NCBI GenBank assembly: GCA_003280485.1
Contig: QCEU01000002.1
Coordinates: 1 to 64,000, forward strand
DNA: 64,000 bases
DNA from: Pelagibacteraceae bacterium AG-359-O02
GTDB lineage: Bacteria > Pseudomonadota > Alphaproteobacteria > Pelagibacterales > Pelagibacteraceae
Direction of reading: 5' to 3'
The position numbers were made by a program, and so were the translations under genes. Of the stretch, positions 34,420 to 38,674 are shown in pieces. The number at the start of each line of letters is the position of its first letter. Position 1 is the stretch's first letter. Below the pieces are notes generated by a model, which saw only the letters and a list, made by a program, of their open reading frames with translations, made no database searches and was not told the DNA's origin.

Positions 34420-35430
34420 ATGAATATAGCAATAGTAGGAGCGACAGGAAACGTAGGTCGAAAATTAATAGAAGTTTTGGAAAAAAAAAACTTTCCAATA
34501 ACAGAGGCGTACTTAGTTGCGTCTCCAAATAGTGAAGGAAAAAAAATTAATTTTTTAGGAAAAGAGCATACTGTTAGTAATTTAGAACAATTTGATTTCT
34601 CAAAAGTAAAAATTGCTTTTTTTGCAGCTGGTTCTTCAATTGCTGAAAAATGGGCACCGATCGCAGCAGAAAAAACAATTGTAATAGATAATTCAAAATT
34701 CTTTAGAAAAGATCCAGAAATTCCTTTAATTGTTCCAGAGGTAAATTCCAAAGAATTACCTAAATTTAAAAATAAGAATATTATAGCAAATGCCAATTGT
34801 TCAGTAATACCAATAGTTGTAGCTCTCAAACCATTACATGATTTGTATAATGTAAAAAGAATAGTTGCATCAACTTATCAATCTGTATCAGGAGCAGGCA
34901 AGGCAGGAATGGATGAACTTATATCCCAAACTAAAGAAGTCTTGGAAAATAAAGATGTTGAGTCAAAAAATTTTACTAAGCAAATTGCTTTTAATGCTAT
35001 ACCACATATCGATAGTTTTCTTGAAAATGGAAGCACAAAAGAAGAGCAAAAAAATCATGATGAGGTAAAAAAAATTTTAGATAGTAAAATTAATATAACA
35101 TCTACTTGTGTAAGAATCCCTGTTCTTGTTTCTCACTCCATAAGTGTGAATGTTGAATTTAACAAAAAACATGACTTAGAAGAAATAAGAAATGTCTTAT
35201 CATCATCACCAGGATGCAAGGTAGTTGATGAGCAAAAAGATGGAGGATACATTACGCCTGTTGAAGCTGAAGACAAATTTGAAACATTCATATCAAGAAT
35301 TCGTGAGGACTCTTCTCAACCAAATTCAATTAATTTGTGGGTTGTGTCTGATAACTTATTAAAAGGTGCTGCACTTAATGCAGTTGAAATTGCTGAGGCT
35401 TTAGTAGAAAAAGATTTTTATGGAAAATAA
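34420..35430 (+). CDS. asd: Aspartate-semialdehyde dehydrogenase
   Basis: A 336-residue enzyme reducing aspartyl phosphate to the semialdehyde for lysine, threonine and methionine synthesis. The NADP site GATGNVGRKL is at the N-terminus, the nucleophile Cys is in NANCSVIP near residue 127, and TYQSVSGAGKAGMDEL follows. A ten-base A-run near 34482 is in frame and intact. It overlaps sdhC by 11 bp. Confidence 0.96.
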   Translation: MNIAIVGATGNVGRKLIEVLEKKNFPITEAYLVASPNSEGKKINFLGKEHTVSNLEQFDFSKVKIAFFAAGSSIAEKWAPIAAEKTIVIDNSKFFRKDPEIPLIVPEVNSKELPKFKNKNIIANANCSVIPIVVALKPLHDLYNVKRIVASTYQSVSGAGKAGMDELISQTKEVLENKDVESKNFTKQIAFNAIPHIDSFLENGSTKEEQKNHDEVKKILDSKINITSTCVRIPVLVSHSISVNVEFNKKHDLEEIRNVLSSSPGCKVVDEQKDGGYITPVEAEDKFETFISRIREDSSQPNSINLWVVSDNLLKGAALNAVEIAEALVEKDFYGK

Positions 35431-35803
35431 AAATCCAATATCGCCACATATACAAATTTATAATTGGCACATTTCCTCACTGGTTTCAATTTCACACAGA
35501 ATAACTGGTATAATAAACTTTTTCACTATAACTTTAATAGGTATATGGATAGCCTCTTTATTATTGGGTGAACAGAGTTATCAGAATATTAATTTGTTCT
35601 TATCATCTTTTTTAGGCAAATTTTTTTGTCTTGGAATTATTTGGTCTTTTTCATTTCAAATGCTTAGTGAAATAAGACATTTGTTTATGGATTTAGGTTA
35701 TGGTTTTGAGCAAAAAACTACAAAAATAACAGGATTAATTGTGCTAATCGGATCATTTCCACTTACTGTAATAATCTTTATTATTGGAAGAGTTTTAATT
35801 TAA
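35420..35803 (+). CDS. sdhC: Succinate dehydrogenase cytochrome b556 subunit SdhC, heme ligand missing
   Basis: A 127-residue three-helix membrane anchor of complex II. The N-terminal SPHIQIYNW and quinone-site SISHRITG (Ser and Arg equivalent to E. coli Ser27 and Arg31) are conserved, and IRHLFMDLGYG matches E. coli IRHMMMDFGY. The residue seven before that His, which is the heme ligand His84 in E. coli, is Gln80 here. No other His lies in the second helix. The quinone site therefore looks intact while heme b ligation looks lost. Its stop overlaps the sdhD start by one base. Confidence 0.93.
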   Translation: MENKNPISPHIQIYNWHISSLVSISHRITGIINFFTITLIGIWIASLLLGEQSYQNINLFLSSFLGKFFCLGIIWSFSFQMLSEIRHLFMDLGYGFEQKTTKITGLIVLIGSFPLTVIIFIIGRVLI

Positions 35804-36126
35804 TGGGATCAGTTACAAAAAAATGGTTGTTCTTAAAAGTAAGTTCAGCAATATTAGTGCCATTAATGCTATGGTTTGCGATTAATCTAGCTTCTATTTA
35901 CGACAAAGGCTTTGAACAGGTATTACTGTTTGTGTCTTCTCAACCTTCAAAGTTTTTGTTAAGTCTTTTTTTGATTTTTGCATATTTTTTCTCTGCACTA
36001 AGTATTAGTGAGGTTTTTGAGGACTATATCGAAGATCAAAAAATCAAAAATGCCGCAAATAAATCTTTAAATATCTTTGCTATAGTATTTCCATTATTAA
36101 TCATTATCTTAATATTTAGTTTATAG
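35803..36126 (+). CDS. sdhD: Succinate dehydrogenase membrane anchor SdhD, no histidine
   Basis: A 107-residue three-helix anchor. The conserved EDY before the third helix (Asp74 and Tyr75, equivalent to E. coli Asp82 and quinone-contacting Tyr83) marks it as SdhD. The heme ligand His71 of E. coli aligns with Phe63, and the entire protein contains no histidine. Together with Gln80 in SdhC this predicts a complex II without heme b. Position between sdhC and sdhA confirms the identity. Confidence 0.9.
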
Positions 36127-36128
36127 TT

Positions 36129-37904
36129 ATGAGTGCATACAAAATTATTGATCATGAATATGATGTTGTTGTTCTAGGTGCAGGTGGTTCTGGGCTAAGA
36201 GCAGCTGTAGGATTAAGTGAAGCGGGATTAAAAACTGCATGTGTCTCTAAAGTGTTCCCAACCAGAAGCCACACCTCCGCAGCACAAGGTGGTATTTCAG
36301 CAGCACTTGGAAATATGGGTGAAGATGATTGGAGATGGCATATGTACGACACTGTTAAAGGTGCTGATTGGTTAGGAGACCAGGACTCTATAGAATATTT
36401 ATGTAAGGAAGCGCCAGCTGCTGTTCTAGAATTAGAAAAGTATGGAGTTCCATTTAGCAGAACAGATGATGGCAAAATTTATCAAAGACCTTTTGGTGGC
36501 ATGACAAAAAACTATGGAAATGAGACTGTGCAAAGAACTTGTGCAGCAGCAGATAGAACTGGACATGCAATACTTCACACATTGTATGGACAAGCTTTAA
36601 AACATAATACCGAATTTTTTATAGAATACTTCGCACTAGATTTAATAATGAAAGATGGAGCATGCAAAGGTATAATTGCTTGGAACCTTAATGACGGAAC
36701 AATTCACAGATTTAAGTCCCATACAACAATTATAGCAACAGGTGGTTATGGAAAAGTGTATTACTCAGCTACTTCAGCTCATACGTGCACTGGAGATGGA
36801 AATGCTATGGCTTTAAGAGCTGGATTACCATTACAAGATATGGAATTTGTACAATTTCATCCAACAGGTATTTATGGTCATGGAACATTAATTTCAGAGG
36901 GTGTAAGAGGAGAAGGTGGTTATCTAGTAAATTCAAAAGGAGAAAGATTTATGGAGCGTTATGCTCCTAAAGCAAAAGATTTAGCATCTAGAGATGTCGT
37001 GAGTAGATCAATTGCAGTAGAAATTAATGAAGGCAGAGGTATAGGAAAAGAACAAGATCACGTTCATCTTCATATTGATCATTTGGACCCAAAAGTTATA
37101 GATGAGAGGCTTCCAGGAATATCAGAAGCATCTAAATTATTTGCAAACGTTGATGTAACCAAGGAGCCTATACCAGTAGTACCCACAGTGCATTATAATA
37201 TGGGTGGAATACCAACAAATTATAAAGCAGAGGTTCTTACATTAAATGGATCTGAAAAAACTGTACCCGGGTTAATGGCTATTGGCGAAGCAGCATGTGT
37301 TTCTGTTCACGGTGCAAATAGATTAGGTTCAAATTCATTAATAGATTTAGTAGTTTTTGGAAGAGCTGCAGCGAAAAGAGCAGCAGAGTTAGTAAAACCC
37401 GGAATGAAGCATGAAGAAATTGATAAAAATGAAACGGATAGATGTTTAGATAGATTTGATAAATTAAGAAACTCAGAAGGTTCAAATCCAACATCTGAAC
37501 TAAGACTTTCAATGCAAAAAACGATGCAATCAAAATGTGCTGTATTTAGAACTGAGAAAACATTAAAGGAGGGCGTTGATGAAATTAGAAAACCTTATGA
37601 TGGAATGGACTCTCTTTCTGTAAAAGATAAGTCATTAATCTTTAATACAGATTTAGTTGAAACACTAGAATTTGACAACTTAATAAGACAAGCAATAACT
37701 ACAATGGACTCTGCTTATCATAGAAAAGAAAGCAGAGGAGCTCATGCAAGAGAAGATTTTCCAAAGAGAGATGACGAAAATTATATGCAACACACTCTGT
37801 CTTGGTGTAATGGTTCAAAAACTAAAATTAATTACAGACCTGTTCATAGATCTACACTTACAAATGATGTACAATATTTTCCTCCACAGGAAAGAGTATA
37901 TTAA
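36129..37904 (+). CDS. sdhA: Succinate dehydrogenase flavoprotein subunit
   Basis: A 591-residue catalytic subunit oxidising succinate to fumarate. The FAD site [12 protein letters not shown] is near residue 17, and the His that binds FAD covalently is in [17 protein letters not shown]. The active-site region [13 protein letters not shown] and [11 protein letters not shown] are intact, and the length is standard. It is followed by sdhB with a one-base overlap. Confidence 0.97.
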
Positions 37905-38674
37905 TGGTTCAATTAAATTTACCTGCAAACTCAAAGGTAGAAAAAGGGCAATATTATAAAGATAAAACAGGTTCAAAAAATATTAGAAAAATAAATATTT
38001 ATAGATGGGATCCATCTAAAAATGAAAATCCAAGACTTGATACCTATGAAGTTGATATGGATAATTGTTCATCTAAAGTCCTTGATGTTTTAAACAAAAT
38101 AAAAAATGAAATAGATCCCTCTATAGCTTACAGAAGATCTTGTGCCCATGGAGTTTGTGGATCTTGTGCAATGAATATGAATGGAAAAAATGGTTTAGCA
38201 TGCACGAAGTCCCATACTGAACTGGATGGAGATATTGATATTTATCCTTTACCACATCTAAAAGTCTTAAAAGATTTAATCGGTGATTTAAGTACATTGT
38301 ATAAACAATATGAGTCCGTTGAACCTTGGTTAAAAACATCAAAGGTAAATGATAAAGAAAATATTCAATCTAAAGATGACAGAGCAAAATTAGATGGATT
38401 GTATGAATGTATAATGTGTGCATGTTGTTCAACATCTTGCCCAAGTTATTGGTGGAACGGTGAAAAATATTTAGGTCCTGCAGTTTTACTTCAAGCTTAC
38501 AGATGGATAATTGATAGTAGAGACGAGGACAGAAAAGAAAGACTAAAAAAGGTTGCTGACGAACTTAAGCTTTATAGATGTCATACTATCTTGAATTGTA
38601 CAAATGCTTGTCCCAAGGGCTTAAATCCTGCAAAAGCTATTGCGGAGATAAAGAAAATGCTTGCAACAGCTTAA
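37904..38674 (+). CDS. sdhB: Succinate dehydrogenase iron-sulfur subunit
   Basis: A 256-residue electron-transfer subunit. The [2Fe-2S] ligands lie in [16 protein letters not shown] with a later LAC, the [4Fe-4S] cluster in [12 protein letters not shown], and the [3Fe-4S] cluster in [14 protein letters not shown]. All three cluster motifs are complete, so electrons can reach the quinone even without heme. It is followed 24 bp on by mmsA. Confidence 0.97.

Follow-up and report, generated by a model that had tools for sequence, protein, structure and literature searches.

Predicted loss of heme b from the succinate dehydrogenase of a SAR11 lineage

In type C succinate:quinone oxidoreductases, one heme b is ligated by one residue from each of the two membrane anchors. 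The anchors encoded at 35420-36126 in the window (the whole 64,000-nucleotide stretch analysed here) lack both ligand residues in our alignments. The question raised by this locus is whether its complex II still carries heme and, if it does not, whether the enzyme still works.

The sdhCDAB operon and the register of its anchors

The window's genome, a 1.1-Mb draft from SAR11 (Pelagibacteraceae), contains an intact sdhCDAB operon at 35420-38674 on the forward strand. The sdhC gene (35420..35803, +) encodes a 127-aa cytochrome b556-type anchor without the heme ligand, which matched PF01127 (98.9 bits), TIGR02970 and, by phmmer, chicken and E. coli SdhC. The sdhD gene (35803..36126, +) encodes a 107-aa hydrophobic anchor identified by TIGR02968 and by its structural match to E. 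coli SdhD (Z 14). The flavoprotein subunit is encoded by sdhA (36129..37904, +; TIGR01816, 950 bits) and the iron-sulfur subunit by sdhB (37904..38674, +; PRK05950/TIGR00384), and all four products scored above curated family cut-offs (TIGR02970, TIGR02968, TIGR01816 and PRK05950). The gene content is thus that of type C, with SDH-lineage SdhA and SdhB beside two Sdh_cyt-family anchor genes; the Fumarate_red_D match to SdhC was sub-threshold (21.6 against 25 bits), and anchors of type D (FrdC/FrdD) were not recognized. The start of sdhC (35420-35430) overlaps the final codons of an upstream ORF (34420-35430) that reads as aspartate-semialdehyde-dehydrogenase-like. An identical copy of the window's SdhC is present in the single-cell genome AG-457-O03 (uncultured Pelagibacteraceae).

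The window's genome (approximately 85% complete) contains a single Sdh_cyt (PF01127) gene pair, as do near-complete genomes of the same genus, and no second, heme-bearing complex II was found in any of them. Genes for ferrochelatase and cytochrome c oxidase subunit 1 are present in the window's genome, indicating that heme is made in the cell and serves other proteins.

SdhC Gln80 (caa, 35657..35659, +) and SdhD Phe63 (ttc, 35989..35991, +) occupy the positions of the E. coli heme-b ligands His84 and His71, as an earlier note on this DNA had read by eye. Our phmmer alignment placed Gln80 opposite the heme-ligand His of chicken SdhC (SYHTWNGIRHL vs SFQMLSEIRHL), and the SHR and IRH-x3-D motifs anchor the alignment to both chicken and E. 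coli SdhC. SdhD was too divergent for a single-sequence search against the PDB, which gave no match; a 40-sequence SdhD profile, however, aligned with E. coli SdhD without gaps across the ligand helix, with Phe63 facing His71. The single-chain AlphaFold2 model of SdhD (pLDDT 91.5) superposed on E. coli chain 2wdq_D over 105 of 105 residues (Z 14.1, rmsd 1.7), model residues 3-107 corresponding to chain residues 11-115; in the model, this constant offset equates Phe63 with His71, Lys12 with Arg20, Ser67 with Gly75, Asp74 with Asp82 and Tyr75 with Tyr83. Since the superposition of the SdhC model on E. coli SdhC (Z 14.6 over 118 residues) contained small gaps and had an rmsd of 4.0, the SdhC register rests on the sequence motifs. 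The only histidines in SdhC are His10, His17, His26 and His87, and SdhD has none, which bears out the earlier reading.

Both models have the three-helix fold of E. coli and mitochondrial SdhC and SdhD. E. coli fumarate reductase (FrdCD, type D) also has two anchors and no heme, but its anchors belong to another family and the SdhD model is nearer to E. coli SdhD (Z 14.1) than to the FrdCD chain 1kf6_D (Z 9.7); the ancestry of the SAR11 anchors is SdhCD.

Ligand states in SAR11 and the integrity of the enzyme

We compared SdhC/SdhD pairs taken from genomes that share the window's genus, family, order or class, together with named records, and scored the residues at SdhC84/SdhD71 (E. coli numbering). 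Both ligands were missing in 103 of 182 SAR11 pairs; the others were His/non-His (27), non-His/His (17) and His/His (35). By comparison, 74 of the 79 sampled alphaproteobacterial pairs from outside SAR11 were His/His. Because the same changes are seen in dozens of single-cell genomes and MAGs obtained independently, they are not due to chance or assembly error, and on these sequences ligand loss is a trait of a clade and not a local error.

Within the window's genus (g1), all pairs of the first set had Gln with Phe or Tyr except L014 (His/Phe), and 19 of 20 additional genomes lacked both ligands; ligand loss is therefore nearly fixed in this genus. The remaining genome (G184, pair L338) has SdhD71 His together with SdhC Gln84 and Glu88, possibly a Tyr-to-His reversion at a drifting site. 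Among SAR11 ligand-losers, SdhD71 drifts between Phe, Tyr and Asn (with one His) and not toward another ligand. Across the other genera the trait is mixed in g2, half-way in g4, and absent in g3, g5, g8, g9, g12 and f2-g14. In the sister SAR11 family f2 (genera g13, g15 and g16; L131-L147, n = 17), SdhC84 is Tyr or Asn and SdhD His71 is kept; SdhC Gly88 is replaced by Cys, Ser or Asp in these pairs. The earlier note had staked its reading on most SAR11 genomes not having His at the two positions. This holds for genus g1, nearly all of which lacks both. In other SAR11 genera, however, one or both His remain, and ligand loss therefore does not extend to the whole of SAR11.

That residues conserved elsewhere are missing could also mean that the anchors are decaying or that the enzyme has ceased to reduce quinone, a reading to which we give almost no credence since the reading frames are intact, omega is 0.2-0.3 and the quinone-site residues are invariant. 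SdhC Ser27 and Arg31 and SdhD Asp82 and Tyr83 (E. coli numbering) were identical in 182/182 SAR11 pairs, the last two being SdhD Asp74-Tyr75 of the window (36022..36027, +), and the SdhB translation retains all three Cys motifs for the Fe-S clusters. Pairwise omega in the ligand-less set was 0.20 for SdhC and 0.29 for SdhD, no higher than in SAR11 pairs with both ligands (0.28 and 0.45, respectively). The sdhC and sdhD genes of ligand-less SAR11 are under purifying selection, which rules out pseudogene decay of the anchors. Subunits, fold, quinone-site residues and Fe-S motifs are thus shared with E. coli SdhCDAB (type C, PDB 1NEK), which differs in carrying heme b on His84 and His71. The E. 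coli heme lies off the electron path, and an E. coli variant engineered to be heme-free still grows on succinate (PMC3290573); the earlier note had pointed out that such an enzyme functions. That variant presumably lacks the Glu, Lys and Ser changes described below.

The remodelled pocket

The distal heme propionate of E. coli complex II is held by SdhC His91, SdhB His207 and SdhD Arg20, and the proximal one by SdhD Gln78 and SdhC Arg31; a pyrrole at the other end of the heme from the propionates is packed against by SdhD Ala23 (PMC3290573). In the window, Arg20 is replaced by SdhD Lys12 (aaa, 35836..35838, +), SdhC Gly88 by Glu84 (gaa, 35669..35671, +) and SdhD Gly75 by Ser67 (agt, 36001..36003, +), both glycines being one helical turn from a ligand position. 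The propionate partner His91 is retained as SdhC His87 (cat, 35678..35680, +), and Asp95 as SdhC Asp91 (35690..35692, +).

Two of these replacements go together with the loss of the SdhD ligand across SAR11. All 130 SAR11 pairs lacking that ligand had Glu at SdhC88, and 128 of them had Lys in place of SdhD Arg20; these counts are not independent within one family, because the joint change of Gly88 to Glu and Arg20 to Lys may have happened once, on a single branch. SdhC88 was Gly in 35/35 His/His SAR11 pairs and in 73 of 74 His/His outgroup pairs. Where the SdhD ligand is missing, SdhD Gly75 has become Ser, Thr or Asn, and Ser or Gly mostly takes the place of the heme-facing Ala23. SdhC His91 and Asp95 were invariant in 182/182 SAR11 pairs, and His30 was found in 181.

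It is improbable that heme b is still bound in these enzymes, whether through SdhC His26 or His87, Gln80 or SdhD Met22, in five-coordinate form, or as a passenger held non-covalently. SdhC His26 and His87 are invariant or nearly so, and their closeness to the original pocket might let them bind a heme loosely; E. coli mutants in a single ligand are reported to retain heme (Maklashina 2001, cited in PMC13066397). The two histidines are, however, equally conserved in ligand-keeping enzymes, and their E. coli counterparts contact the pyrrole ring and a propionate (PMC3290573); we rejected them as alternative ligands, as they are old residues with other roles. A search for conserved His, Met or Cys exclusive to ligand-less SAR11 SdhC and SdhD gave a single new membrane candidate, SdhD Met22 (35866-35868; E. 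coli position 30), found in 97 of the 103 ligand-less proteins as against Leu in most His/His SAR11. Position 30 lies two helical turns past Ala23, itself the contact of the pyrrole farthest from the propionates. Met22 would sit beyond the far edge of the heme, and the substitution is probably a change in packing. A buried Glu at SdhC88, combined with the loss of Arg20, would also disfavour a porphyrin, and SdhD71 varies freely. No conserved residue emerged from this search as an alternative axial ligand, for which the earlier note had proposed to look.

We conclude that sdhCDAB, the sole complex II detected, very probably encodes a succinate:ubiquinone oxidoreductase of type C, heme-b descent that has lost its heme, remodelled the pocket and continued to work. 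The earlier prediction of a working heme-free enzyme is well supported at the level of sequence, now with the propionate Arg and two glycines replaced in addition to the ligands and with the quinone site and purifying selection kept; the absence of heme itself is what we infer from these changes. Electrons would pass from FAD through [2Fe-2S], [4Fe-4S] and [3Fe-4S] to ubiquinone without heme, as in the heme-free E. coli variant and yeast.

The cryo-EM structures of Saccharomyces cerevisiae complex II (PDB 9qdl/9qdm) are heme-free; Sdh4 Lys73, Glu112, Tyr108 and Thr84 replace the heme contacts through the pairs Arg97(Sdh3)-Glu112(Sdh4), Asp167(Sdh3)-Lys73(Sdh4) and Tyr157-Thr84, and Tyr108 is set against the remaining Sdh3 His156 (PMC13066397). 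From the spacing of the yeast residues (108/112 against 71/75, and 156/167 against 84/95), Tyr108, Glu112 and Asp167 would correspond to SdhD71, SdhD75 and SdhC95, with Lys73 acting as Arg20. The SAR11 enzyme, as predicted here, resembles that of yeast in its type-C fold and quinone site without heme, an aromatic residue at the SdhD ligand position (Tyr108 in yeast, Phe or Tyr in SAR11), a Lys for the propionate Arg (Lys73 and Lys12) facing a conserved SdhC Asp, and a newly acquired Glu that is a single turn away from a ligand position. It differs in that yeast keeps the SdhC His (His156), like the SAR11 group that has lost only the SdhD ligand, and carries its Glu on SdhD (Glu112); the SAR11 Glu is at SdhC88, pseudo-symmetric to SdhD75, and would be of independent origin. 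With Lys at Arg20, an aromatic residue at His71 and Glu at the mirror position, the SAR11 enzyme may belong to the sub-division of type C that PMC13066397 calls for, a heme-free SdhC/SdhD lineage in which Lys, Glu, Tyr and Thr substitutions replace heme contacts.

By analogy, Phe or Tyr and Gln would fill the former heme cavity in SAR11, and salt bridges between the proteins would take the place of the heme propionates. The proposed bridge is SdhD Lys12 to SdhC Asp91, equivalent to yeast Lys73-Asp167. Lys12 probably also pairs with the new SdhC Glu84, which would be the mirror image of yeast Sdh4 Glu112 across the SdhC/SdhD pseudo-twofold axis. Direct SdhC-SdhD contacts would then replace heme as the staple between the subunits.

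Outside SAR11, Glu occurs at the yeast position itself. It occupies SdhD75 in each of four alphaproteobacterial families whose SdhC84 is Tyr, and was present there in 4 of 5 ligand-losers and in 0 of 90 others (Fisher p = 1.6e-6, in a test that ignores phylogeny); a second sampling round added one more such ligand-loser, L306 (Phe84/Glu75). Of the five pairs (L195, L196, L199, L200 and L306), L199 lacks both ligands. Two His/His lineages, L310 and L313, nevertheless carry Glu at SdhD75 (with Arg or Glu at SdhC88); these exceptions to the idea that Glu stands in for a propionate rule out a universal Glu rule, so the association with ligand loss is strong without being exclusive.

Order of loss and possible motives

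The order of loss was traced on a maximum-likelihood tree of SdhA and SdhB that left out the trait-bearing SdhC and SdhD and was built twice, quickly with 95 rows and with bootstraps for 56. The genera without the SdhD ligand formed one supported clade together with the His/His genus g3; because the deepest fork of this clade is open, the simplest history, in which the SdhD ligand was lost once, is not proven. The SdhC Gln form fell into two separate clades, g1 (100/100) and another (95/90) inside a 100/100 group with His/Phe relatives, and one pair, L275, has lost the SdhC ligand separately, with Phe. Together with the SdhC loss in family f2, this indicates that ligand loss happened more than once and took either order. 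In Pelagibacteraceae, the SdhD ligand would have been lost first, with Gly88 changing to Glu, and the SdhC ligand later and more than once, in which case heme is probably also missing from relatives that have only the SdhC His left.

One genus g2 pair, L057, belongs to a hybrid sdh operon with a g2/g4-like SdhA (94% identity) and g3-like SdhC and SdhD that carry both His; its anchors are 82% and 79% identical to those of L124, against about 56% and 43% to those of its own clade. Heme-binding anchors may have been regained by recombination, or the contig may be chimeric.

We put at about even the chance that heme loss follows a defined, recurrent route. One axial His would be lost while a Gly-to-Glu change one turn from a ligand position stands in for a propionate, and the second His would drift away later; SAR11 would hold intermediates in both orders, yeast would have taken the mirror-image route independently, and the SAR11 genera with only the SdhC His would already be heme-free.

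Why heme was lost is a separate question, and both motives considered here are compatible with a heme-free enzyme. The earlier note had linked the loss to the low iron of the open ocean, and we regard such an adaptation as rather doubtful. Iron in the surface ocean averages about 70 pM (PMC2864753), the sources of the ligand-less proteins are Pelagibacteraceae, for the most part single cells from the environment, and L276, possibly lake-derived by its name, keeps both ligands. The saving, however, is at most one Fe in ten per complex, as the Fe-S clusters still need nine; the cell has kept ferrochelatase and cytochrome oxidase, several other SAR11 genera keep both ligands, and yeast lost its heme without an open-ocean habitat. 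The SAR11 iron-limitation paper (PMC2864753) mentions neither sdh nor succinate, and we treat the iron-saving motive as a hypothesis. A neutral or assembly-driven loss, in which a structural staple replaceable by subunit contacts disappears by drift or through streamlined assembly, seems to us an evenly balanced proposition. The E. coli heme is dispensable (PMC3290573), and the losses are recurrent and mosaic, SdhD first in one SAR11 family and SdhC first in its sister, with further cases in other alphaproteobacterial lineages and yeast. On the other hand, the retention of both ligands in most other Alphaproteobacteria implies that heme is usually selected for, and the losses cluster in SAR11.

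Heme-free complex II of SdhCD descent is known from yeast and has been reported for the mitochondria of Tetrahymena and Perkinsus (cited in PMC13066397), whose enzymes differ in being highly divergent and inside supercomplexes; SAR11 would extend it to bacteria. Titles and abstracts that we searched, which covered few subscription papers, contained no report on heme or iron in the succinate dehydrogenase of SAR11 or Pelagibacter, and none of a heme-free complex II in other bacteria of the SAR11 lineage. Since the complex II heme lies away from the route of the electrons, its role has been a matter of long dispute. If our reading is true, SAR11 is a natural experiment, with heme-bearing, one-ligand and heme-free forms of one enzyme in one order; a Glu one turn from the ligand may serve as a sequence signature of heme loss, and the label 'cytochrome b556 subunit' in an annotation may be mistaken. 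The most numerous respiring bacteria of the ocean would then run an enzyme of the TCA cycle without heme, while sister genera still run it with heme.
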